NCBI GenBank assembly: GCA_902786725.1
Contig: CADADP010000004.1
Coordinates: forward strand, 40,371-104,370
Reading direction: 5' to 3'
DNA: 64,000 nt
From: an uncultured Bacteroidales bacterium
GTDB taxonomy: Bacteria > Bacteroidota > Bacteroidia > Bacteroidales > Muribaculaceae
How positions within the stretch are numbered: position 1 is the first letter of the stretch; each line of letters starts with the position of its first letter. This document shows, piece by piece, positions 6,776 to 57,587 of the stretch. Under the pieces are notes generated by a model. It did not search any database, was not told where the DNA came from, and was given only the letters and a program-made list of their open reading frames with translations. The translations under genes were made by a program, and so were the position numbers.

Positions 6776-9172
6776 TTACTTGATAATAACCTTCTTGGAG
6801 TTGTCGTCGGCGCAAACCACGTAGATGCCGGCGGGCAGGGAGATGTTGTCGCGTCCGCTGACAGTGCACTTGTAAACGAGTCGAGCCTCCATGTCATAGA
6901 CTTCGAACTTAGTGGTCTTACCGGCCTCGAATATGAGGTTGTGTCCGCTCACGTATGCGTCCCAAGTCTGTCCGTCGATAACGTTGTCGATAACTGTAGA
7001 TACCTTGTAGTCGGTGATAGAGATGTCGTCCACATTGAAACGTCCACCGGCCGTTTTCTGTATTTTGAGGCGAACCGCTCCCTGAATGTTGACACCGGAG
7101 AAGGAGAGTTTTTCCCAATTCTCGTCGATTTCGAGGTCTTGAGCCACGATTTGCCAAGTGGTTCCGCCGTCGTTAGAGATGAGAACGTTGAACTTGGGAG
7201 TGGCTTCGCTTGCGCTCCACTTGGCGGCGTAGAACGAGATGGTTCCGGCGCCGTTAGGTTTATCGGCGAGCATTTCGATGCTTGAGTCGGCATTCTTGCC
7301 GAGTCGGCACGAGAGGCCACCGTTCTTGTGGCTATCGGCCCAAATGCCGGTATTGTTGAAGCTCCAGTTGCACATATTACCTTCCACTTCCTTAGTCCAG
7401 TAACCTCCGCTTGTGAGGTCTTCCCACTCTTCGAGGAATGTCTGAGGCTCGGCCACGATGCCGGTGATGGAGGCGTTGGTGCCGTCGAGTGTGTAGGTGC
7501 TGGCGGTGATGGTGCCGCTGAAAGTGCCGGCAGTGGCAGTGTTCTTGAGTCGGATGTAGAACGTTTCGCCGTCGGCGGCCATAGTGATGGAATTGCTCCA
7601 ATTGGCTTTGTCGAGGCTGAGTTCGAAGTTGCCGGTCACATCCACATCCACGTCCTCGGTGATATACTCAGTGTAAACCGACGACTCCAGAATGGGCGAA
7701 GCCTCGCCCGGAGCGCAAGAGATAATCATGCCTCCGGTGGGGATGGTGATGCCAATAATGGGTGTGGGCGCCAGTGTGGTAACAGTGATTACGTTCGACT
7801 CTATGGTGCTGTATGTGAGTTTGTAGCGATAAGTGGTGTTTGGCTCCAGCCCAGTAACGGTGTACTTGCCTGTGGAGGCTGTCACGTTCTTGGGATAGCC
7901 GCTTAGCAACTCTTCGGCATTGTCATAAACGTAGAGTTTGTAGGTTGCGCCGGCTCCGCTGACGTTGGTCCAGTTGGCAACGAACGAGGTTTCGGTTACG
8001 TTGGATGCGGCATTGGCGGGTATTCCGTCCACGGCCTGAGCCGACAGATTTACCACTGCGCTAACCTCGCTGCTGCTGATGGTGAGTGTGGCGGTGTTGG
8101 TTCCGGCAACGGTTGTGATGTATTTAACTGTAAGGGTTGTTCCTGCATTGGCGTTGGCAGCGGTGATTGTCGTCACGCCGGAGGTGGAGAAATGGTTGCT
8201 GCCGCTGAGCGAAACAGTGAGGTTTTTAGTAAGGTTGGCTCCCTTGACGGTGATGGTGGAAGTTACCTCAGTGTTGATGGATATAACGCCGAAATTGATT
8301 GCCGATGTGGCACTGGGCGAAGTGAGGACAGGTTCGGTGGAAACTCCGCCGGGTACCCAGCCCACGGTCTTCTGGTTGCCCCAGATGTGCTCGGCCAGTT
8401 CTGGGTAGTCGATAAACGGGTTGCGGTTTTTCTGCTTTGCGTATGCAGCGTCGTTGCGCTTAGTTTCCTTTTCGCTGACAGGGTCGTTGCGGTGCCATTC
8501 CAGGAGCATATTCAGAGCCCAATTGGAGAACACCGGGTACTTGTTGCCGGCGAGCATTTCGCTGTTCCACGACGAGATGAGGTTGTTGTAGCATGTGGCC
8601 ATGTAGAAGTAGGTGCGAGCGAAGTCGCCCTTGAACTCATCGTCGGGTTCCCACACCTTGCCGGAGTATCCGCTGTAGGTGCTGGTTCCAAGTCGTCCGC
8701 GTCCTGTATATCCATTGCTTTTGTTCACGAGTCGTACTCCGTCTGCGCAAACCCCAAACGGGAAATTGCTACGTTGGTTATTGACATAACCGTCGGTGGG
8801 ATAGAGGTGGAATATGTCGGAGTAGCAATCGTTTTTGTTGCCTCCCCACCAGCTCTTGGGGAATGAGTGCTCGCGGTTGACGCAGTCGCCCACGTTGCTA
8901 TAGCTACCGCACTTCTTGAAGCTGGATGCCTTCCATGGTGTGGTGGAATACATGTCGATCAGGTAGCCGTTTTCGACGTCGGTGGTTTGATAGGCGTCCC
9001 AGAGTCCGTCGTAACCGATGTTAGTGTGGCTGTTAATCTTGTTGTAGAGAGCGGTGAGCAGGGTTTGTCCGTACTTGCCTTCGGCTGTGGAGTAGTACCC
9101 TGAAGGAATAGCCGCTTGGATAGCGTTGAACGCGATGAGGCATGCGAAGATGCCGGTTAGATAACGTTTCAT
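6776..9172 (-). CDS. Secreted endonuclease I-family nuclease with FN3 and C-terminal sorting domain
   Basis: A 798-residue secreted nuclease. Residues 1-20 form a signal peptide. The catalytic part carries the endonuclease I signature NREHSFPKSWWGG (99-111, containing the catalytic His) and HLYPTDGYVNNQRSNFPFG, as in periplasmic and extracellular EndA-like DNases. Next come an Ig-like stretch, a fibronectin type III-like module (around NVTETSFVANWTNVSG) and a jelly-roll-like module (TISFYAAKW to FNVDDISITDY). The C-terminus (FEVYDMEARLV to SKKVIIK) resembles a type IX secretion sorting domain. It probably degrades extracellular DNA at the cell surface; that role is inferred. It follows rlmN by 69 bases with no obvious promoter of its own, so it may be cotranscribed. 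Confidence 0.85.
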   Translation of the reverse strand: MKRYLTGIFACLIAFNAIQAAIPSGYYSTAEGKYGQTLLTALYNKINSHTNIGYDGLWDAYQTTDVENGYLIDMYSTTPWKASSFKKCGSYSNVGDCVNREHSFPKSWWGGNKNDCYSDIFHLYPTDGYVNNQRSNFPFGVCADGVRLVNKSNGYTGRGRLGTSTYSGYSGKVWEPDDEFKGDFARTYFYMATCYNNLISSWNSEMLAGNKYPVFSNWALNMLLEWHRNDPVSEKETKRNDAAYAKQKNRNPFIDYPELAEHIWGNQKTVGWVPGGVSTEPVLTSPSATSAINFGVISINTEVTSTITVKGANLTKNLTVSLSGSNHFSTSGVTTITAANANAGTTLTVKYITTVAGTNTATLTISSSEVSAVVNLSAQAVDGIPANAASNVTETSFVANWTNVSGAGATYKLYVYDNAEELLSGYPKNVTASTGKYTVTGLEPNTTYRYKLTYSTIESNVITVTTLAPTPIIGITIPTGGMIISCAPGEASPILESSVYTEYITEDVDVDVTGNFELSLDKANWSNSITMAADGETFYIRLKNTATAGTFSGTITASTYTLDGTNASITGIVAEPQTFLEEWEDLTSGGYWTKEVEGNMCNWSFNNTGIWADSHKNGGLSCRLGKNADSSIEMLADKPNGAGTISFYAAKWSASEATPKFNVLISNDGGTTWQIVAQDLEIDENWEKLSFSGVNIQGAVRLKIQKTAGGRFNVDDISITDYKVSTVIDNVIDGQTWDAYVSGHNLIFEAGKTTKFEVYDMEARLVYKCTVSGRDNISLPAGIYVVCADDNSKKVIIK

Positions 9173-40218: not shown

Positions 40219-42592
40219 TTACTTAACGCTCAGCGTAATAGTCTGCTTGATTTTCCTTTTGGGCGCTGTCACTGTGAGTGTTATGTCACCGGCATCTTGT
40301 CCGGCCTCCACCACCACCACCAGTTTGCCGCCGAATAGTTTCATCGTTGGCTTGGTGAACGGCTCCAGCGAAGTGGCGTCGCCGTTGCAAACGGCGCGGA
40401 ATTTGCCTGCTCCGCTCACGGTGAACGTCAGCTGGTCGTCGGCATGTGGACACAGATTGCCGTTTTTGTCGGTCATTTCCACTGTCACAAAAGCCAAGTC
40501 TTCGGTGGCGCGGGTAAGCTCAGCGCGGTCGGCTGTGAGGCGCAACTTAGCCGCTTTGCCGGCTGTTCTGAGTGTTTGCTCGCCGGCAGCGTTGCCATTC
40601 TTGTCATACACCACCACTTTCAGTTCGCCCGGCTCATACACCACGTTGCGCCAGCGCAGGCGGTAGCGGTCCAGACGCGAGTCGCGGTTCTTGCTGATGC
40701 GACCCTGGCTGCTCTGCCTCGGGATAGTCGGTGTAGCAATACACCGGTGTCACCTTTCCCTTGCGGTCGGGCCACGTCCAGTGAGGTAGCAGGTGAATTG
40801 TGTGAGCGTTCTTATTCCAGTGGCTACGATACAGGAAGAAACGGTCCTTAGGCAACCCAGCAAGGTCGCTGATGCCGTAATAACTGCTGCGCGATGGCCA
40901 GTATGCGTCGTAGGGAGTGGGCTCGCCCAGATAGTCAAAGCCGGTCCACACAAATTCGCCCACCGTCCAGTTAAAGTCATCCTGCAAACGCCAGTCGTCC
41001 TCAGGCAGATTGCTCCACCAGCAGTGCTCCAAGTCATAGCCAGAGCACTGGCCGTTCTCGTAGGCCTTGCCTATAGCCACCGTGTCGGGGAACATATACA
41101 CGCCGCGGCTACTCACCGTAGAGGCCGTTTCAGAGCCGAGCAAGAAGCCTTGCGGCAGTTGCCCGAACGTGGGCTCATAGCGATGCGTGCGGTAGTTATA
41201 TCCCGGAACGTCGGCCGCGAATGCGAAGCCCGAGGCTATGTCGGCATCGGGGTTATCCATGCCGCATGTCACCGGGCGCGACGGGTCGAGCAGGTGGCAC
41301 AGACCCACCAGGCGGCGATAGCGCTCGGCACCCTCGGTCTTCCACTGCTCGGGTATCTCGTTGCCCACACTCCACATCACTATCGACGGGTGGTTGCGGT
41401 GATTACGTATCAAGTTGGTGATATCGCGCTGCCACCACTCATCCCAGAATCGGCCATAGCCGTTCTTCACCTTGGGGTCTTTCCAGCCGTCGAAACTCTC
41501 GGCCATCACCAGCATTCCCAAGCTGTCGCACAGTTCCATCTGCATCGTTGAGGGCATGTTATGCGATGTGCGGATGGCATCGGCTCCCATATCTTTCAGT
41601 ATCTTTATTTGCCTGATTAGCGCGGCCTTGTTCACGGCGGCTCCTATCGGACCCAGATCGTGATGCAGACACACGCCGCGGAACTTGCGGGTCACGCCAT
41701 TGAGTTGGAAGCCGTGCTCGCGACTGAACGAGATGGTGCGGATGCCAAATCGGGTGCAGGTGTTGTCAAGCACTTCTCCATCGGTGGTTAGCAACTGGGT
41801 CTCAAGGGTGTAGAGGCTGGGACTCTCGGGCGACCATAGCGCCGGTGAACTGATTTTGAATTGAGCCTCGGCCAGCCCAAGCTCTGAGCACGGCACAGTC
41901 TCTTGCGCCACCACGGCTCCAGCGGGCGACTTCACTGTGAGTCGCACCGAGCCGCTTACCGAGATACACTCGGTGCTCACCAGCACTTGCGCCTCCTGCT
42001 TATCGGCTTTCAGAGTGCGCACAAATGTGCCCCATTCGTCGATGTGTCGCTTGCTCGGCGTGGAAATCAGGGTCACGGGGCGGTATATGCCACCACCGGG
42101 ATACCACCGGCTACTCTCCTCCAGGTTGTTGAGCACCACGCGCACCGTGTTGGGAGCGCCATTGGGGTTAAGGAACGGTGTCACATCCACGCGAAACGCG
42201 TTGTATCCGTAGGCCCAACGCCCGGCCTCCTTGCCGTTGACATACACCACCGGCTCGCTCATTGCTCCGTCGAACACCAGAGCGGCAAATTTGTGGCCGG
42301 CAGGAATGCTGAATGTGGTGGTGTACTCGCCACGACCTATCCAGGGCAGGGCACCGCTGCGGCCGGTGTGCTCCGTGGCCGTCTCTTCCCCGTTTTCCTT
42401 AATGGCCACCACCTGCAAGTCGTGCTTCTTGTCGAACGGACCGCCTATAGCCCAGTCGTGGGGCACTGTCACCGGAGTAAAATTCACACCGTCGCGCGAA
42501 AACTGCCACTGGCTCAGTGTGCTCACGTGGCGCTGTGCCGATACCGACAGAGCGGCGACGGCGCAAAGTGTAAAGATAATGGCTTTCTTCAT
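40219..42592 (-). pseudogene. Glycoside hydrolase family 2 (beta-galactosidase-like) gene, frameshifted
   Basis: The minus strand encodes a GH2 enzyme in two frames. Part 1 (42592-40634, 652 codons) has a signal peptide (IIFTLCAVAALSVSAQ), the sugar-binding domain, the Ig-like domain and the TIM barrel with GVCLHHDLGPIGAAVNKAAL, MWSVGNEIPEQW (acid/base Glu) and FLLGSETASTVSSRG (nucleophile Glu). It then runs YTDYPEAE and leaves the frame. The family sequence resumes in another frame at about base 40710 (SQGRISKNRDSRLDRYRLRW) and continues through VVYEPGELKVVVYDKNGNA to the stop at 40219. Compared with the usual PEAELFVNGKSQG, about 17 bases seem lost at 40710/40711, beside two AGAGC-like repeats. 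Either the gene is inactivated or this is a sequencing error. Likely substrate is a beta-galactoside. Confidence 0.85.
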
Positions 42593-50718: not shown

Positions 50719-53505
50719 TTATTCACCCATCAGCTGATTTGCCAAGCTGGTTACGTCGGTGATGTCAACCTCGCCGTCGCCGTTCATGTCGGCAGCATCC
50801 TTACTGAATCCGCTGGGAGTGTCACCCATCACGTGATTAGCCAATGCCACCACGTCGCTAACATCCACATTACCGTCACCGTTAGCGTCGCCCTTGGTGA
50901 TGCCGTCTTTCAGCTCGTGGCTGATAGTGTTCTCTGCAAGGTTGAATGCCACATACAGCTTGTACGGACCACCTGCGGGAACTGTCACAACGTAGTTGTT
51001 CTCATAGCCTGCAGGCCATTCGCCTTGTTCCCATGAGTGGTTCTTCACCACCTTGAACTGAATCTCATACTCTTCTTCAGCGCTGAAGTTAGCGGAAGTC
51101 CACTCATACAGACCTGATTCTGCGTTGAGAGCCATTTCTGTTGCAGGATTTGTAGCATCCCACTCATTCTCTCCGAAGATAGCGTCGTTACCTGCAATAG
51201 AGTAAACGTCGGTTACAACGGCACCGTTCAGCACAGCGTTGATTTCCTTAGAATCGGCGTCAAATGTAATAGACAGAGTGTAAGGACCACCTGCGGGAAC
51301 AGCTACATAGTAGTTGTCAGTAGGCCAAGCGCCTTCGTCCCAGTTGTGGTTCTTCACCACCTTGAACTCAATCTTGCTGTCAGCCTCAGAGCTGAACTCA
51401 GCCGAAGTCCAAGTGTAAAGGCCTTCTTCTGTCAGGGTCATGTCGTTAGCAGCCAGTGCCTGGTTCCACCACTCACCGAATACTGCGTCCTCAGTCTTGC
51501 CTTCAACGTAGTCGCCCAGACCACCAGCCACTGTGTAAGTGTCGGCAACAATCGGAGCACCTTCGAGAACGTGAGTTATTTCCTTGGTCTCAGCGTTGAA
51601 TGTAACTGTCAGATAGTAAGGACCGCCTGCAGGAACTGCTACAGAGTAGTTGTCAGTTGGCCATGCGCCTTCGTCCCAACTGTGGTTCTTCACCACCTTG
51701 AACTCAATCTTAGAATCAGCCTCACTGCTGAATGGAACCGAAGACCAAGTGTAAGTTACCTCATCGGTGCCGAGAGTCATCTCGTTATCAGCCAGATTCA
51801 GATTCCACCATTCACCGAATACAGCGTCCTCAGTCTTGCCCTCTACGTAGTCACCGAAGCCACCAACCACTGTGTAAGTGTCAGCTACAACGGGAGCACC
51901 GTTCAGGATGTGACGTATTTGCTTTGTCTCAGCGTTGAATGCAACATACAGAGTGTACGGGCCACCTGCCGGCAGAGCCACTGTGTAGTTGTTCTCATAG
52001 CCCTCGGGGTAAGAAACGTTCCAACTGTGATCCTCAGCGATCTTGAGCTGAATCTCACCAGCCTCAGTTGCGCTGAACTCACCCGAAGTCCACTCATACA
52101 GGCCGGCCTCGGCGTTCAGTGTCATGTCGTTTGCTGCGAGAGTCTCGGCCCACTCAGTGCCGAATACGCTTGCGGGAGCACCCACCACTGTGTAAGTGTG
52201 CTCGCTCGAAGACTCACCATTCAGGTTGGCGCTTATTTCCTTAGAATCGGCGTCAAATGTAATAGACAGAGTGTAAGGTCCACCCACGGGCAGAGCCACC
52301 TCAAAGTTGTTTGCCGGATAAGCCACAGTCCAAGCGTGGTCTTCCACAACCTTGAACTCTATCGTGCCTGGCTCAGTTGCGCTAAACTCACCCGAAGTCC
52401 ACTCATACAGTCCGCTCTCGGCGTTCAGTGTCATGTCGTTTGCTGCGAGGGTCTCGCTCCACTCAGTGCCGAATACGCTCGCGGGAGCTCCGGCCACTGT
52501 GTAAGTGTGCTCGGTAGAAGCCTGGCCATCGTATGCGGCGGTGATTTCCTTTGTCTCGGGGTCAAATGTGATGGTCACTGTGTAAGGACCTCCTGCGGGG
52601 ATGTTCAGTACCCAGTTTTCTGCGGGATAAGCCACATTCCAAGAATGGTCTTCCACCACCTTGAACTCAACTGGCTCGGCATCCTCTAAGCTGAATTCGC
52701 CCGATGTCCAAGTGTAAAGCCCGTTCTCCAGAGTCATGTCTGTGCTGGCGTTTGCTGCGTCCCACTCAGCACCGAAGATTGCGGCGTTGCTACCGGCAAT
52801 CGAATAAGTGTGCTGGATCGGTGTGGCGCTGTTCAGCGTGGCGTTAACGGCCTTAGTCGTAGCGTCGAACGTTATGGTCAGCGTGTACGGGCCACCCACG
52901 GGAGCGGTTACTTGCTTGTCCTGCGACGGATAAGCCTCACCCCATGAGTGGTCAACCACAACCTTGAACATAATTGACATAGCTTCATCAGTCACTTTAA
53001 ATTCGCCCGAAGTCCAAGTGTAAAGCCCGTTTTCCAGCGTCATGTCTGTGCTGGTGTTCGTCGGGTCCCACTCTGCGCCGAAGATGCTCTCGGGTGCTCC
53101 GGCAATCGAGTAAGTGTGAGTCACTTCGCCTGCGGTTCCGGTCTTGGTTACCTCGGCGCTTGCCGTCTCGTTACCGTCGAATGTGTAAACCACCTTGTAC
53201 TTGGCGGTCTCTGTTACGTTGATAACGAAGTTGCTACCCTTGTCGTTGCCACCGGTCTTGATCCAGTTGGAGGTGCCATCAGTGACGAGCCACTCGTAAT
53301 TGGTTCCAACTTCCAGGGTGCAGTCGGTCACCTCCAGTTTGTAGGTGCCGTCCTGCTGCTGTGTCATTTGGTTTACGCTTGCAGTGTGATTCCAAGTCTG
53401 GCCATTCAAAATGGCTCCTGACCCTGAAACATACCATGCAGCGTTAGCATTGAAAGCTGTAACAGCCATCAACACAGCCATGATTGTTGAGAAAAAATGT
53501 TTCAT
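50719..53505 (-). CDS. Secreted modular repeat protein A: seven ~100-residue modules plus dockerin
   Basis: A 928-residue exported protein. Signal peptide (residues 1-22, ending NANA), then a divergent N-terminal module (WYVSGSGAILNGQTWNHTAS). Seven tandem modules of 98-115 residues follow, each starting [HD]TY[ST][IV][AV]G, then FG.EW, GLYEWTSGEF, FKVV.DHSW, YP, [AV]P.GGPYTL.[IV]TF and a K[EA][IV].A.LN end. Modules 5 and 6 carry an insertion (GDYVEGKTEDAVFGEWW). The C-terminus is a two-repeat dockerin-like Ca2+-binding domain (GDANGDGNVDVSDVVALANH and DMNGDGEVDITDVTSLANQL). The module pattern recalls SusE/SusF- or X25-type starch-binding domains, which is inference. First of three paralogues. 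Confidence 0.8.
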   Translation of the reverse strand: MKHFFSTIMAVLMAVTAFNANAAWYVSGSGAILNGQTWNHTASVNQMTQQQDGTYKLEVTDCTLEVGTNYEWLVTDGTSNWIKTGGNDKGSNFVINVTETAKYKVVYTFDGNETASAEVTKTGTAGEVTHTYSIAGAPESIFGAEWDPTNTSTDMTLENGLYTWTSGEFKVTDEAMSIMFKVVVDHSWGEAYPSQDKQVTAPVGGPYTLTITFDATTKAVNATLNSATPIQHTYSIAGSNAAIFGAEWDAANASTDMTLENGLYTWTSGEFSLEDAEPVEFKVVEDHSWNVAYPAENWVLNIPAGGPYTVTITFDPETKEITAAYDGQASTEHTYTVAGAPASVFGTEWSETLAANDMTLNAESGLYEWTSGEFSATEPGTIEFKVVEDHAWTVAYPANNFEVALPVGGPYTLSITFDADSKEISANLNGESSSEHTYTVVGAPASVFGTEWAETLAANDMTLNAEAGLYEWTSGEFSATEAGEIQLKIAEDHSWNVSYPEGYENNYTVALPAGGPYTLYVAFNAETKQIRHILNGAPVVADTYTVVGGFGDYVEGKTEDAVFGEWWNLNLADNEMTLGTDEVTYTWSSVPFSSEADSKIEFKVVKNHSWDEGAWPTDNYSVAVPAGGPYYLTVTFNAETKEITHVLEGAPIVADTYTVAGGLGDYVEGKTEDAVFGEWWNQALAANDMTLTEEGLYTWTSAEFSSEADSKIEFKVVKNHNWDEGAWPTDNYYVAVPAGGPYTLSITFDADSKEINAVLNGAVVTDVYSIAGNDAIFGENEWDATNPATEMALNAESGLYEWTSANFSAEEEYEIQFKVVKNHSWEQGEWPAGYENNYVVTVPAGGPYKLYVAFNLAENTISHELKDGITKGDANGDGNVDVSDVVALANHVMGDTPSGFSKDAADMNGDGEVDITDVTSLANQLMGE

Positions 53506-53634
53506 AAATCTTTTAAGTTTTTAAATAAAGATTGGTTATTGTTTAAGTTATAAAAATGTTTAAAAAGTCAGTGTTAATGCGGTCTTCCGGTGTTTCCCTC
53601 GGTTTTGCCGTTTATGTGCTTCATTAGTAGCATA

Positions 53635-53666
53635 CAAATTTACGAATTTTACGCCGCCTGAACAAA
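53635..53666 (-). promoter_or_regulatory. Promoter of repeat protein A
   Basis: Minus-strand TTTG (53663-53666), 20 bases, TAAATTTG (53635-53642); leader about 125 bases. The 416-base gap between A and B holds this promoter and the terminator of B. Confidence 0.68.
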
Positions 53667-53861
53667 TTTTTTTCAAAAAAACGCACTTTTTCTGCGCAAT
53701 CGTTTGCATCTCGCGCGAACTTATGAATTTTTACAATTCGGATACCTCAACCAGTTAAAGAGAACATTATTATTTGTTCTCTGATTTTTGGTCCATTATC
53801 GATAATTCGGGTGCCATTAGTGACCATTTATATAGAAAGTCCCCTACTCAATACAAGCAGA

Positions 53862-53887
53862 GGAGGCACCACACTTGTGGCACCTCC
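53862..53887 (-). terminator. Hairpin after repeat protein B
   Basis: GGAGG..CCACA pairs with TGTGG..CCTCC; in the leftward RNA two G-U pairs complete a 12-bp stem. It is 35 bases after the stop of B. Confidence 0.65.
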
Positions 53888-53921
53888 CCATTATCATTCA
53901 GCGTCTCTACTGCTGTCTCTC

Positions 53922-55097
53922 TTATTTCACCACCTTTGTGGCCTGCTTGCTGCCGTCGGCATATGTGGTAACCACCACGTTCACGCCTTGGAACGGCTCG
54001 GCGCTCTCCACGCCCAGCAGGTTGTAGTACTTCACGCCGGCCACGGCCTTGTCAGCATTCAGGTCGTTAACGCCCGATGTCTTGATTGAACCGAATACTT
54101 CACCGGTCTCATTATTGAAGTAAACAGTCAGCTCGTAGCTCCCGGCCGACTCCACAGCCACCTGATAGTTCTCTGCGGGCCATGCTGTGCTCCATGCGTG
54201 ATCTTGAACCACCTTGAACTCAATCAGGCCCTCTGCTGCAGCGCTGAACGCCTTCTTGAACTCATACAGGCCACCGCTGTTGAGCGTCATGTCGTTCGCT
54301 GTCTGGCTCGGATCCCACTTCGTGGTGAAGATGTCGTCGGCACTCAGAGCATCGCCCTCGCCCCACGAACCGGCCACAGTGTATGAGTGGTTAATCACAC
54401 CACCCGATTTCAGGTCGGCGCCCACACTCTTCGTGTTGGGGTCGAAAGTGATAACCAGCGTGTAAGGGCCTCCCACAGGTGCGTTGAGCACGTAGTCGCT
54501 TACGGGATATGCCTCACCCCAAGCGTGGTCAACCACAACCTTGAACTTAATCTCCAGGTCGGCGTCGCTCACCGAGAATTCGCTCGAAGTCCACTCATAC
54601 ACACCGCTTGAGTTCTTGCTCATGTTGGTGCTGGTGTTCGTCGGGTCCCACTCTGTGCCGAAGATGCTCGCGGGAGTACCTGCGATAGAGTACTCATGCG
54701 TCACTTCGCCTGCGTCACCTGTCCTTACCACATCGGCCGAGGCCACGGGTGCCTCAAGGCTTCCGTTGAACTTGTAAGTCACGGTGTACTTGGCGGTCTC
54801 TGTAACGTTGATGGTGAAGTTGTCGCCCATGTCGTTGCCACCGGTCTTAATCCATGCGCCACCTTGCCCATCGGTAATCAGCCACTGGTAGGTAACACCG
54901 GTCTCAAGAATACAGTTCTCAACCACCAGCTTGAACGAACCGTCGCCCTGCTGGGTCATCACGTTCACTGTGGATGTGTGATTCCATGTCTCTCCGTTCA
55001 GGATAGCGCCCGAACCCGATACAATCCATGCTGCGTTGGCGTTAAATCCGGCCATTGCCATCAGCACGGTAAGAATTGCTGTGTAGAAATGTTTCAT
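53922..55097 (-). CDS. Secreted modular repeat protein B: two modules and sorting-type tail
   Basis: A 391-residue paralogue of protein A. Signal peptide (ending NANA) and N-terminal module (WIVSGSGAILNGETWNHTST) are nearly identical in plan to A. Two modules follow: HEYSIAGTPASIFGTEW to GGPYTLVITF, and HSYTVAGSWGEGDALSADDI to GSYELTVYF; the second has an insertion at the same place as A modules 5-6. The last 50 residues (GVNDLNADKAVAGVKYYNLL to ATKVVK) resemble a type IX sorting or cell-surface-anchoring tail and are the same as in protein C apart from the last residue. No clear promoter was found; a weak one or readthrough is possible. Confidence 0.78.
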   Translation of the reverse strand: MKHFYTAILTVLMAMAGFNANAAWIVSGSGAILNGETWNHTSTVNVMTQQGDGSFKLVVENCILETGVTYQWLITDGQGGAWIKTGGNDMGDNFTINVTETAKYTVTYKFNGSLEAPVASADVVRTGDAGEVTHEYSIAGTPASIFGTEWDPTNTSTNMSKNSSGVYEWTSSEFSVSDADLEIKFKVVVDHAWGEAYPVSDYVLNAPVGGPYTLVITFDPNTKSVGADLKSGGVINHSYTVAGSWGEGDALSADDIFTTKWDPSQTANDMTLNSGGLYEFKKAFSAAAEGLIEFKVVQDHAWSTAWPAENYQVAVESAGSYELTVYFNNETGEVFGSIKTSGVNDLNADKAVAGVKYYNLLGVESAEPFQGVNVVVTTYADGSKQATKVVK

Positions 55098-55343
55098 AAA
55101 TTCTTAGAGTTTAATTGTTGTTGGTTAATGTTTGATATTTATTTAAAGTTTTGTGTCTTAGCTGGTTAGTGTGTTAGATGCGGCCCACTCGGCCACCATC
55201 TTACTTTTCAAGCTATAAAATTACTGCTTTTTGAATAAGTGGCCAAATTTTTTAAGATTTTTTTATAAAATCATACCCGAAACTAACCTTAATTAAGCAA
55301 CTCTGTCATACACATTTAGTCGCCATCCGGCCTCGCGAAACGT

Positions 55344-55379
55344 AGGCGGGACCGATGCCGCCTCGCGTCAGTCCCGCCT
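55344..55379 (-). terminator. Hairpin after repeat protein C
   Basis: AGGCGGGAC / GTCCCGCCT, perfect 9-bp stem, 18-base loop, about 105 bases after the stop of C. The rest of the 387-base B-C gap is AT-rich and featureless near B. Confidence 0.7.
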
Positions 55380-55484
55380 TGCCTCGGATTCTCCTGCCGT
55401 CATAATGCCGACGGCGTGAGAAATATGGTTTTTGATTGCTTAACTTTTCAGATCTTGGCTCATCTAAGGGCTGTCAATGCCGCT

Positions 55485-57587
55485 TTAGCGAACCACCTTA
55501 GTGGCCTGCTTGCTGCCGTCGGCGTATGTGGTAACCACCACGTTCACGCCCTGGAACGGCTCGGCGCTCTCCACGCCCAGCAGGTTGTAGTACTTCACTC
55601 CGGCCACTGCCTTGTCGGCGTTCAGGTCGTTAACGCCTGTCGCTATCTCCGATGTCGCGCTTATACCCTTGCTTGCGGCGTCGAATGTGATGGCGATGTT
55701 GCTCTTTTGGTCGGTGGGCACTTCCATCGTGTAATTATCGGCGGGATAAGCGTTCTCCCAGTTACCGTCTTCCACCACTTTAAACTTGATGGTGGTCATG
55801 TCACCCTCGGCGCGCTTGCGCACGTTCTGGCCCTTAGCCGGAGCCGAATTGCTGCTTGCCGGTTTGTAGGTGACGTTCAGCGTGTAGATGCCGTTGCCCT
55901 GGTGCACCAGCGCGTTGTTAGTGTCGTTGATGTCCCATTCTGAGCCGAATGCCTCAACCGGTTCGCCGGCCACCACGTATGAGTGCGCGCCGTTGAGTAC
56001 TGCGCCCACCGCGTTGCCGTTGGGGTTGAATGTCACAGTCAGAGTGTAGGGGCCGCCTGCTGGCAGGTTCAGATTGTAGTTGTCGGCGGGATAAGCCTCA
56101 CCCCATGAGAAGTTCTTCGCCACCTTGAACGAGATGCTACCGTCCTCGGCTTGGTTGAACTCGGCCGATGTCCAGCGATATAGTCCGTCGGTGCCCTGAG
56201 TCATCTTGGTGTTGAGGTTCTTCACGTTCCAGTCGCCGCCCAGGATGTCTGTGCTGCCGCCCACCACCGAGTAGGCCACGTCGGCGCCGTTAACTGTTCC
56301 GCTCACTGCGTTGCCGTTGGTGTTGTAGGTAACTGTCAGGGTGTAGGGGCCACCTGCAGGAACAAACACATACTGGTTGTCGCCAGAGGGATATGCGCTG
56401 TCCCATGAGTGGTTCTCTATCACTTTGAACTCGATGAAGCCGTCGGCCGCCTGGTTAAAGTTGCCCGATGTCCACGAATACACGCCGCTCTCGCCCTCGG
56501 TCATCTCGGTAGAGGTTTCGGTAGCGCTCCAGCTTGCGCCGAACAGTGTGGCGTCGCTTCCGGCCACCGAGTAGGTGTTAGTGATAACTGTCTCGGAATT
56601 GAGCTCGGCATTCACCTCCTTCGAATCGGCGTTGAATGTTACCGTCAGTGTATATGGGCCACCCACAGGAGCGGTTAGGGTGTAGTTGTCGCTCGGGTAA
56701 GCCTCGCCCCAAGCGTGGTCAACCACTACTTTAAATCCTATCGCGAGGGCCTGATTCTCAACGCTGAATTCGCCCGATGTCCACTCATAGAGTCCCGTAT
56801 CAGAGTTGAGCGTCATCTCTGTCGATGTGTTGGTCTCACTCCAGCTTGCGCCGAACACGCTCTCGGGGGTACCCGCGATTGAGTAAATGTGAGTGATTGG
56901 GGTGGCGCTGTTCAGCGTGGCGTTAACGGCATTCGTCGTAGCGTCGAACGTGACGGTCAGGGTGTAAGGACCACCCACGGGAGCGGTTACTTGCTTGTTC
57001 TGCGATGGGTAAGACACAGCCCAACCGTGGTCTCGCACTACTTTAAACTCAATTGTCTTGGCTTCACCGCTCACCGAGAATTCGCCCGATGTCCACTCAT
57101 AGAGTCCGGTCTCGGTGTTGAGCGTCATCTCGGTCGATGTGTTGGTCTCACTCCAGCTTGCGCCGAAGATGTCGGCTGGGTTACCGGCAATCGAGTAAGT
57201 GTGAGTCACTTCGCCTGCACTTCCGGTTTTGGTGGTGGTAACCTCGCATTTAGCGGTTGACACAGTGTAGGTGTAAAGGATGTCATACACACCATTCTCG
57301 CTTACCGAGAACGAAGCGTTGCTGCCTGTCTTTGGCCAGTACTCTGTCCAAGAGCCCTTTTCCACTATTTTATACTCGTAGTTTGTGCTTGCTTCCAGTG
57401 TAGCATTGCTCACTGTGAGCGTGTAGGTGACTCCACCATCACTGGTGCTCATCACGTTGGCGGTCGAATTGATGTTCCAATTCTCTTCATTGCAGACAAT
57501 GGGAGAGCCTACCACCAAATAAGTCGCCGCATAACTCGACATCGAGAATGCCACAACCATCATAATCAGTGTAAAGAATTTCTTCAT
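55485..57587 (-). CDS. Secreted modular repeat protein C: five modules and sorting-type tail
   Basis: A 700-residue paralogue of A and B. Signal peptide (MKKFFTLIMMVVAFSMSSYA), a divergent N-terminal module (YLVVGSPIVCNEENWNINST), then five modules beginning HTYSIAGNPADIFGASW, HIYSIAGTPESVFGASW, NTYSVAGSDATLFGASW, VAYSVVGGSTDILGGDW and HSYVVAGEPVEAFGSEW. The fifth is looser and has a basic, low-complexity insertion (NSAPAKGQNVRKRAEGD). The 50-residue C-terminal tail is shared with B nearly letter for letter, at DNA level too. The aromatic pair W (EWTSGEF and DH.W) is kept in almost all modules, as expected for ligand-binding surfaces. Function is not established. Confidence 0.78.
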   Translation of the reverse strand: MKKFFTLIMMVVAFSMSSYAATYLVVGSPIVCNEENWNINSTANVMSTSDGGVTYTLTVSNATLEASTNYEYKIVEKGSWTEYWPKTGSNASFSVSENGVYDILYTYTVSTAKCEVTTTKTGSAGEVTHTYSIAGNPADIFGASWSETNTSTEMTLNTETGLYEWTSGEFSVSGEAKTIEFKVVRDHGWAVSYPSQNKQVTAPVGGPYTLTVTFDATTNAVNATLNSATPITHIYSIAGTPESVFGASWSETNTSTEMTLNSDTGLYEWTSGEFSVENQALAIGFKVVVDHAWGEAYPSDNYTLTAPVGGPYTLTVTFNADSKEVNAELNSETVITNTYSVAGSDATLFGASWSATETSTEMTEGESGVYSWTSGNFNQAADGFIEFKVIENHSWDSAYPSGDNQYVFVPAGGPYTLTVTYNTNGNAVSGTVNGADVAYSVVGGSTDILGGDWNVKNLNTKMTQGTDGLYRWTSAEFNQAEDGSISFKVAKNFSWGEAYPADNYNLNLPAGGPYTLTVTFNPNGNAVGAVLNGAHSYVVAGEPVEAFGSEWDINDTNNALVHQGNGIYTLNVTYKPASSNSAPAKGQNVRKRAEGDMTTIKFKVVEDGNWENAYPADNYTMEVPTDQKSNIAITFDAASKGISATSEIATGVNDLNADKAVAGVKYYNLLGVESAEPFQGVNVVVTTYADGSKQATKVVR

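Follow-up and report, generated by a model that had tools for sequence, protein, structure and literature searches.

X25 module arrays with dockerin or type IX secretion-like tails in a Muribaculaceae genome suggest an amylosome-like starch-binding surface

Sas20 and Sca5 of the Gram-positive amylosome bacterium Ruminococcus bromii are non-catalytic proteins with tandem X25 modules, and Sas20 terminates in a dockerin. According to the accessible text of PMC9112005, Sca5 terminates in a sortase sequence, one maltotriose sits between both modules of its second X25 unit (X25-2) with tryptophans stacking, single Sca5 X25 modules show no binding, and mutating the W661 equivalent abolishes binding. 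SusE and SusF of Bacteroides, lipoproteins of the starch utilisation system (Sus) with two and three X25 modules, have a common fold and binding site with the X25 modules of Sca5 in the same source. In the pullulanase of Bacillus acidopullulyticus the X25 module stands within an enzyme. Here we describe three adjacent genes, encoding proteins A, B and C, in a 64,000-nucleotide stretch of DNA (the window) from an uncultured Bacteroidales bacterium of the family Muribaculaceae (assembly GCA_902786725.1, contig CADADP010000004.1, positions 40,371 to 104,370 of the forward strand). Like the R. bromii proteins they are tandem X25 arrays, with 3-8 X25-type modules strung together, and unlike the pullulanase they have no recognised enzyme domain. 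Protein A, as Sas20, terminates in a dockerin, whereas B and C carry, where Sca5 has its sortase sequence, tails that resemble the C-terminal domains (CTD) of the type IX secretion system (T9SS). We consider it reasonably likely that the three proteins, taken together, make up a T9SS-displayed, amylosome-like starch-binding surface.

The three proteins are encoded by minus-strand open reading frames (ORFs) without internal stops. Their features are given below with the support for each, namely Pfam, the search of the genome with the Pfam X25 model (genome X25 search), an alignment of the modules (module alignment) or a profile of 14 repeats (14-module profile).

50719..53505 (-): protein A, 928 residues; signal peptide (by eye), 8 X25 modules, C-terminal type I dockerin
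53122..53445 (-): N-terminal divergent X25-like module of A, residues 21-128; 28.4 bits, 14-module profile
52810..53121 (-): X25 module 2 of A, residues 129-232; Pfam, genome X25 search, module alignment
52507..52809 (-): X25 module 3 of A, residues 233-333; genome X25 search, module alignment
52198..52506 (-): X25 module 4 of A, residues 334-436; genome X25 search, module alignment
51886..52197 (-): X25 module 5 of A, residues 437-540; genome X25 search, module alignment
51547..51885 (-): X25 module 6 of A, residues 541-653, carrying an additional loop close to its N-terminal end; module alignment, not among the genome X25 search stretches
51208..51546 (-): X25 module 7 of A, residues 654-766, with the same loop as module 6; genome X25 search at 20.7 bits, alone below the cut-off, and module alignment
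50905..51207 (-): X25 module 8 of A, residues 767-867; module alignment, not among the genome X25 search stretches
50719..50904 (-): C-terminal type I dockerin of A, two calcium-loop repeats; PF00404 E 2.3e-11, phmmer to solved dockerins
53635..53665 (-): possible Bacteroidota-type promoter of A, TTG-N20-TAAATTTG; weak match
53922..55097 (-): protein B, 391 residues; signal peptide (by eye), 3 X25 modules, T9SS-CTD-like tail
54702..55037 (-): N-terminal divergent X25-like module of B, residues 21-132; 22.0 bits, 14-module profile
54384..54701 (-): X25 module 2 of B; genome X25 search, module alignment
54063..54383 (-): X25 module 3 of B; Pfam, genome X25 search, module alignment
53922..54062 (-): T9SS-CTD-like tail of B; recurrent tail search, no NCBIfam or Pfam model match
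55485..57587 (-): protein C, 700 residues; signal peptide (by eye), 6 X25 modules, T9SS-CTD-like tail
57207..57527 (-): N-terminal divergent X25 module of C, residues 21-127; Pfam 27.7 bits, over the cut-off, and 50.1 bits, 14-module profile
56895..57206 (-): X25 module 2 of C; genome X25 search, module alignment; modelled with module 3
56583..56894 (-): X25 module 3 of C; genome X25 search, module alignment; modelled with module 2
56280..56582 (-): X25 module 4 of C; genome X25 search, module alignment
55980..56279 (-): X25 module 5 of C; Pfam, genome X25 search, module alignment
55635..55979 (-): X25 module 6 of C, the most divergent, with an internal insert; module alignment, genome X25 search over part of it only
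55485..55634 (-): T9SS-CTD-like tail of C; shares 98% identity with the B tail across 43 residues

The modules belong to the X25 family. Pfam PF22058 (X25_BaPul_like), which also covers the B. acidopullulyticus pullulanase, matches A, B and C with E-values of 8e-40, 2e-17 and 1e-42 (135.2, 63.6 and 144.5 bits against a curated cut-off of 27). The same model finds 16 stretches in the genome at E<=0.001, of which 13 lie in the window and the remaining 3 in a single other protein, and 14 of the 16 exceed the cut-off. Given these matches and scores so far over the cut-off, the repeats are not a chance resemblance. The other protein has 1493 residues (contig C24, locus L130, 1694-6175) and a similar T9SS-like tail; Pfam places five X25 stretches in it and no further family above cut-off. 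The initial annotation, made from the window alone, had described three adjacent secreted proteins of 7, 2 and 5 repeats, and these are real, with the ORFs and Pfam X25 in all three. The repeats measure 100-115 residues each, at pairwise identities of 25-77% with the N-terminal modules left out. The annotation had also set a divergent N-terminal module apart from the repeats. That module is indeed divergent, but it is itself X25-like in all three proteins by the 14-module profile, so that the module counts become 8, 3 and 6. Residues Y4, G8, W18, Y36, K55, W62 and P67 of the module alignment are invariant over the 14 repeats. The GLYEWTS element of the pattern described for the modules does not occur in all of them, and the dependable signature is instead the pair of tryptophans, kept in 17/17 modules (14/14 repeats and 3/3 N-terminal modules).

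The closest solved structures point to alpha-glucan as the ligand. Searched against the chain sequences of the PDB, the 14-module profile finds only 7rpy and 2wan at E<=1; phmmer with the whole of C against the PDB gave no match. 7rpy is X25-2 of R. bromii Sca5 in complex with maltotriose, and 2wan is the X25-bearing pullulanase of B. acidopullulyticus. We modelled modules 2 and 3 of C as a pair, using 59 aligned module pairs (11 from the window and 48 from relatives). The mean pLDDT is 95.9 and the pTM is 0.65, indicating that each module is well predicted and the orientation of the pair less so. Foldseek with this model finds 7rpy (1.3e-8) and 2wan (9.1e-4) and no others at E<=0.001, so the fold search on a predicted module that the annotation had proposed as its check comes out in favor of X25. 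The TM-scores by query are low (0.37 and 0.38, respectively), which we put down to a differing orientation of the modelled pair. A separate model of protein B from three sequences was poor (pLDDT 59.3) and was not used.

Both module tryptophans align with tryptophans of the second 7rpy repeat, 41 residues apart there as counted by hand, and only the first of them aligns in the first 7rpy repeat. Since 41 is the spacing of W620 and W661 of Sca5 X25-2 in the accessible text of PMC9112005, we infer that these are the aligned residues. The site in Sca5 is formed by a pair of modules, and by analogy a protein with many modules in a row might present several clamp-like sites. The best reading of the modules of A, B and C, from family, fold and conserved tryptophans, is that they very probably bind alpha-glucan.

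The tails of B and C recur in the genome. A query made from the tail finds 23 places, B and C included. We label the tail T9SS-CTD-like because of its C-terminal position, its recurrence on proteins that look secreted where they were read and the presence in the genome of the T9SS core gene SprA (SprA_N, E 7e-194), and partly because of its resemblance to T9SS sorting tails. As TIGR04183 does not recognize it, the tail is termed T9SS-like only. Judging from these features, B and C are likely displayed through the T9SS. Four GH13 proteins of the genome (two in L132, one each in L156 and L158) have tails of this general kind by eye. One of the four, a 1245-residue amylase in which Pfam finds three CBM26 stretches, also belongs to the 23 places. 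The two amylases of L132 (contig C7, 2184-9977), both GH13 proteins with a sorting-like tail and one of them bearing three CBM26 stretches, are possible working partners of the X25 proteins. Elsewhere in the window, at 6776-9172, lies what looks by eye like a secreted endonuclease I-type nuclease, with a tail resembling the other T9SS-like tails.

The dockerin and the T9SS-like tail replace each other in relatives. A search of public genomes with six modules returned 38 loci, mostly from Prevotella and other Bacteroidales, many of them from ruminants, along with some Ruminococcus and Clostridia and one Cellulomonas. Seven of the Prevotella loci encode orthologous-looking X25-GH13 amylases, three with a dockerin (L093, L094 and L095) and four with a T9SS-like tail (L096, L098, L099 and L100). 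With the tails left out, dockerin-tailed and T9SS-like-tailed amylases are 55-78% identical over 921-963 aligned residues, and the sequences diverge right after a common GGYYDATG segment. All seven match NCBIfam alpha-amylase models below the curated cut-offs, and Pfam finds GH13 in both of the two tested. By our own profiles, the 50 X25 ORFs of the 38 loci carry a dockerin (9), a T9SS-like tail (18), both (0) or neither (23). The last group includes two that end in dockerins by eye (L095 and L126), several with other tails, some cut by contig ends, and some from Firmicutes or Cellulomonas. An X25 array with a C-terminal dockerin and no enzyme part seen occurs in seven relatives' loci (L105, L109, L113, L119, L123, L126 and L127), and hence the architecture of A recurs. 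Pfam, run on three of these seven, detects both X25 and a dockerin in all three, but only the L105 dockerin exceeds the cut-off.

The dockerin of A (residues 871-925) scores 44.1 bits against the PF00404 cut-off of 22.9, retains the calcium-loop residues of both loops, and matches solved dockerins such as 6kg9, CelS 2mte and 1daq in phmmer. It is one of 28 dockerins of the genome over the PF00404 cut-off, all of which end 2-9 residues short of the C-terminus. The helix face DVVxLANxVMG is nearly constant across them. Their carriers are otherwise unrelated proteins, including LRR_5 proteins (4), M6 peptidases (3), a C10 peptidase (1) and one X25 protein, which is A. Most have a signal-like N-terminus by eye, C48_13902 being unclear; a lipobox-like string occurs in two of the 28, one of which, C11_10997, could be a lipoprotein signal. 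We also scored dockerins in a sample of 198 genomes of the family, limiting the scoring to 30 candidates per genome (loose first-look candidates ran up to 299). A dockerin match was found in 83 genomes. In the 16 sampled genomes of this genus the number of dockerin matches never falls below 28, and outside the genus G001 has at least 30, G042 has 9 and the remaining listed genomes have 0-4. X25 is found in 24 of the 198 genomes (14 over cut-off) and in 10 of the 16 of the genus. The congener G122 (L205) encodes seven consecutive dockerin-tailed genes on one strand, with 211 loose first-look dockerin candidates, and no Pfam cohesin was found in its whole genome.

Candidate cohesins do exist in this genome, and they are divergent in comparison with the R. 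bromii system. Profile A5, built from eleven cohesin-like domains of relatives, is itself cohesin-like: most of the 27 PDB sequences that it matches at E<=1 are cohesins (such as 5n5p at 4.7e-6 and, over the full length, 3ul4 at 2.9e-5), and the few unrelated entries all have E-values greater than 0.3. A5 finds three places in the genome, at C32:21738-22181 (E 2.9e-8, positions 1-137 of 139), C18:29586-29750 (E 1.5e-5, positions 1-56) and C57:10919-11083 (E 0.048, positions 1-56), and the view taken from Pfam that the genome has no cohesin was therefore dropped. A second C18 gene, missed by A5, was found by its 72% identity to the first. The two C18 genes and the C57 gene encode proteins of 237-244 residues with a signal peptide, a cohesin-like domain and a T9SS-like tail, and these tails are also matched by the search with the B/C tail. 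At the C18 locus (L133, 1989-12999) four dockerin genes are interspersed with the two cohesin-like genes of 239 and 244 residues, and on C57 the cohesin-like gene follows a dockerin gene. The three are paralogues with identities of 70-72%, so they represent no more than two places and may go back to a single old gene pair. A7, a profile of four domains of this genome, aligns to A5 in hhalign with a probability of 96.9% (E 1.5e-10), and control alignments against X25 gave 0.3% and 0.7%. From these profile matches the C18, C57 and C32 domains are probable cohesins. The C32 domain (L236, 5673-6905) heads a longer protein that is truncated at the contig end and also has chitobiase C-terminal-like domains; Pfam finds no cohesin in this protein.

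Cohesins and dockerins also occur together in relatives. Pfam Cohesin matches at E<=0.001 are found in 33 of the 198 family-sample genomes (29 over cut-off) and in 7 of the 16 genus genomes (6 over cut-off). We read 19 cohesin stretches with our own profiles, two from this genome and 17 from relatives; the latter were chosen for their cohesin matches, so no frequency can be drawn from them. The cohesin profile was built partly from L224, L225, L238, L242 and L243, which match by construction, and L226-L233 and L241 were not included. Five loci in three congeners (L225, L226, L228, L229 and L230) have a gene for a 220-246-residue cohesin-dockerin protein beside a larger cohesin-dockerin(-cohesin) gene; a T9SS-like tail is found there by profile in L226 and L230, by eye only in L225 and L229, and is missing in L228. 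Two congeners encode 914-residue proteins with six cohesins and a dockerin (L231 and L232), and L233 and L224 have three or four cohesins and a dockerin. Prevotella L241, from the same goat abomasum genome as L096, has a cohesin-dockerin gene followed by a gene for a 232-residue signal-cohesin-tail protein, with a clear cohesin (1e-29) and a weak tail match (2e-3) by profile. Pfam confirms these readings partly: among nine such proteins it finds the dockerin in all nine (one below cut-off) and a cohesin at E<=0.01 in five (one below cut-off), and none in the two 220-residue proteins tested nor in one of the two 914-residue proteins. Proteins with 3-6 cohesins and a C-terminal dockerin, small cohesin-dockerin and cohesin-dockerin-cohesin proteins, and the type I dockerin of A recall cellulosomes and amylosomes; the difference is that the candidate anchoring cohesins here carry T9SS-like tails. 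Of 15 relatives' genomes searched, 12 have a Pfam Cohesin match (10 over cut-off). The numbers of matches are 5, 3 and 6 in the genomes with dockerin-tailed amylases and 4, 0, 2 and 2 in those with CTD-tailed ones, a difference from which nothing is drawn as the genome sizes differ (3.4-4.9 Mb and 2.0-4.4 Mb, respectively).

These observations suggest the following mechanism. A type I signal peptide would take A, B and C across the inner membrane, and the three would act as non-catalytic multivalent binders of starch, glycogen or malto-oligosaccharide. The tails of B and C would route these two proteins out through SprA and anchor them to the outer surface, and the same would apply to amylases of this genome that have similar tails. 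The dockerin of A, standing in place of a T9SS tail, would bind a T9SS-displayed cohesin-like protein, through which A would reach or stay on the surface; on the sequence evidence we regard this docking as evenly balanced. Starch would thereby be held beside T9SS-displayed amylases, much as in the R. bromii amylosome, with a T9SS anchor instead of a sortase one. We put forward more tentatively, as possible but a little short of even, that this Bacteroidales lineage has a Gram-negative cellulosome- or amylosome-like surface. On it, dozens and possibly hundreds of secreted proteins with dockerin tails, X25 arrays among them, would be held by T9SS-displayed cohesins together with small cohesin-dockerin adaptors and scaffoldins of several cohesins, and the dockerin and the T9SS tail would be interchangeable routes to the surface.

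A number of results weigh against the amylosome-like explanation. The tails of B and C have no match in TIGR04183, NCBIfam or Pfam, and the closest TIGR04183 match, which is sub-threshold (E 0.021), is on a GH13 protein of the genome with a different tail variant. Pfam Cohesin has no match in this genome, Pfam assigns no family to the three small cohesin-like proteins of C18 and C57, A7 matches no cohesin among solved structures, and no cohesin lies beside A. We had expected small cohesin genes to recur beside congener dockerin genes, and this expectation failed: a stand-alone cohesin-like gene was found in 0 of 20 regions around such genes, where L211 and L224 are the only two with proteins bearing both a cohesin and a dockerin. 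Our own-genome dockerin profile is not very sensitive in congeners, having missed the dockerins of L210 and L212. The number of dockerins and the presence of cohesins do not track across the 16 genus genomes, and the model leaves unexplained how a dockerin protein passes the outer membrane.

An alternative is that the dockerin-like tail has no cohesin partner and is a C-terminal sorting, folding or retention module in its own right that replaces the T9SS tail, so that A would display itself. The extreme C-terminal position of all 28 genome dockerins, the mostly signal-like N-termini, the near-constant helix face, the spread over unrelated carriers (leucine-rich repeat proteins and peptidases of the M6 and C10 families among them), and the direct tail replacement in the Prevotella amylases would all fit such a module, as would the single-contig genome G173 with at least 30 dockerins and no Pfam cohesin match, A5 not having been run on G173. 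However, congener dockerins are also N-terminal (L213, L214, L216 and L220) or internal (L208 and L222), positions that a C-terminal sorting signal does not allow, and cohesin-like genes are present in this genome and in relatives. We consider this alternative rather unlikely, if still the strongest competitor to cohesin docking of A.

Two further alternatives concern the modules. They could bind a different glycan, of the host or of an exopolysaccharide of the bacterium itself, or serve mainly as adhesin spacers, since X25 was assigned by sequence and fold only and no starch gene was seen by eye beside A, B and C. This is improbable considering the two tryptophans kept in every module, the origin of both closest solved relatives from starch-acting proteins, and the fusion of X25 arrays to GH13 amylases in Prevotella. 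Alternatively, A, B and C could be SusE/SusF-type surface lipoproteins of a starch utilization locus, to which they are alike as (predicted) multi-module starch-binding surface proteins of Bacteroidota. The initial annotation had likened the modules to SusE/SusF or X25-type glycan-binding modules, in a surface-binding or adhesive system whose reach might depend on module number. The comparison is sound at the level of the fold, given the common fold reported in the accessible text of PMC9112005, and its X25 part is upheld by Pfam, the profile matches in the PDB and the predicted structure. Membership with SusE/SusF was rejected: the signal peptides show no lipobox cysteine by eye, no SusC/SusD is among the neighbors read, SusE/SusF appear neither in the sequence matches of the 14-module profile to the PDB nor among the 50 fold matches shown, and the proteins have 8, 3 and 6 modules ending in a dockerin or a T9SS-like tail. 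Such a role is hardly credible.

By eye, the genes adjacent to A, B and C encode a flippase, an acyltransferase-like protein, a symporter and a dGTPase-like protein, and there is no SusC/SusD or glycosidase among the immediate neighbors. The nearest glycosidase-looking ORF is GH2-like (40634-42592), about 8 kb off. The consensus behind the possible promoter of A, which we take to be that of Bacteroidota, matches at 21 places in the window, and this match was set aside as uninformative.

The dockerin of A, the sorting-like tails of B and C and the X25 identity of the N-terminal modules had been overlooked in the initial annotation, and they change the likely mechanism. In the accessible text of PMC7260996, Bacteroidetes bins of a rumen gene catalogue have dockerins and none has a recognizable cohesin; their role is called unclear, and the Bacteroidetes cohesins are suggested to be perhaps too distant for recognition. 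The available parts of PMC7480376 describe the role of dockerins in polysaccharide utilization loci as not yet defined, and those of PMC6071333 mention cohesins in certain Bacteroidetes. In the open-access literature, as far as its text was available, we found no description of T9SS-tailed cohesins or of X25 arrays with exchanged tails. The tail replacement, together with divergent T9SS-like-tailed cohesin-like genes beside dockerin genes, makes the question of the dockerin's role directly testable with a few small proteins. Dockerin-tailed and T9SS-like-tailed X25 arrays may be a sign of a docking system for capturing starch that has received little recognition in Bacteroidales. If this is true, these bacteria would have a means of holding starch distinct both from Sus and from binding modules simply linked to an enzyme.

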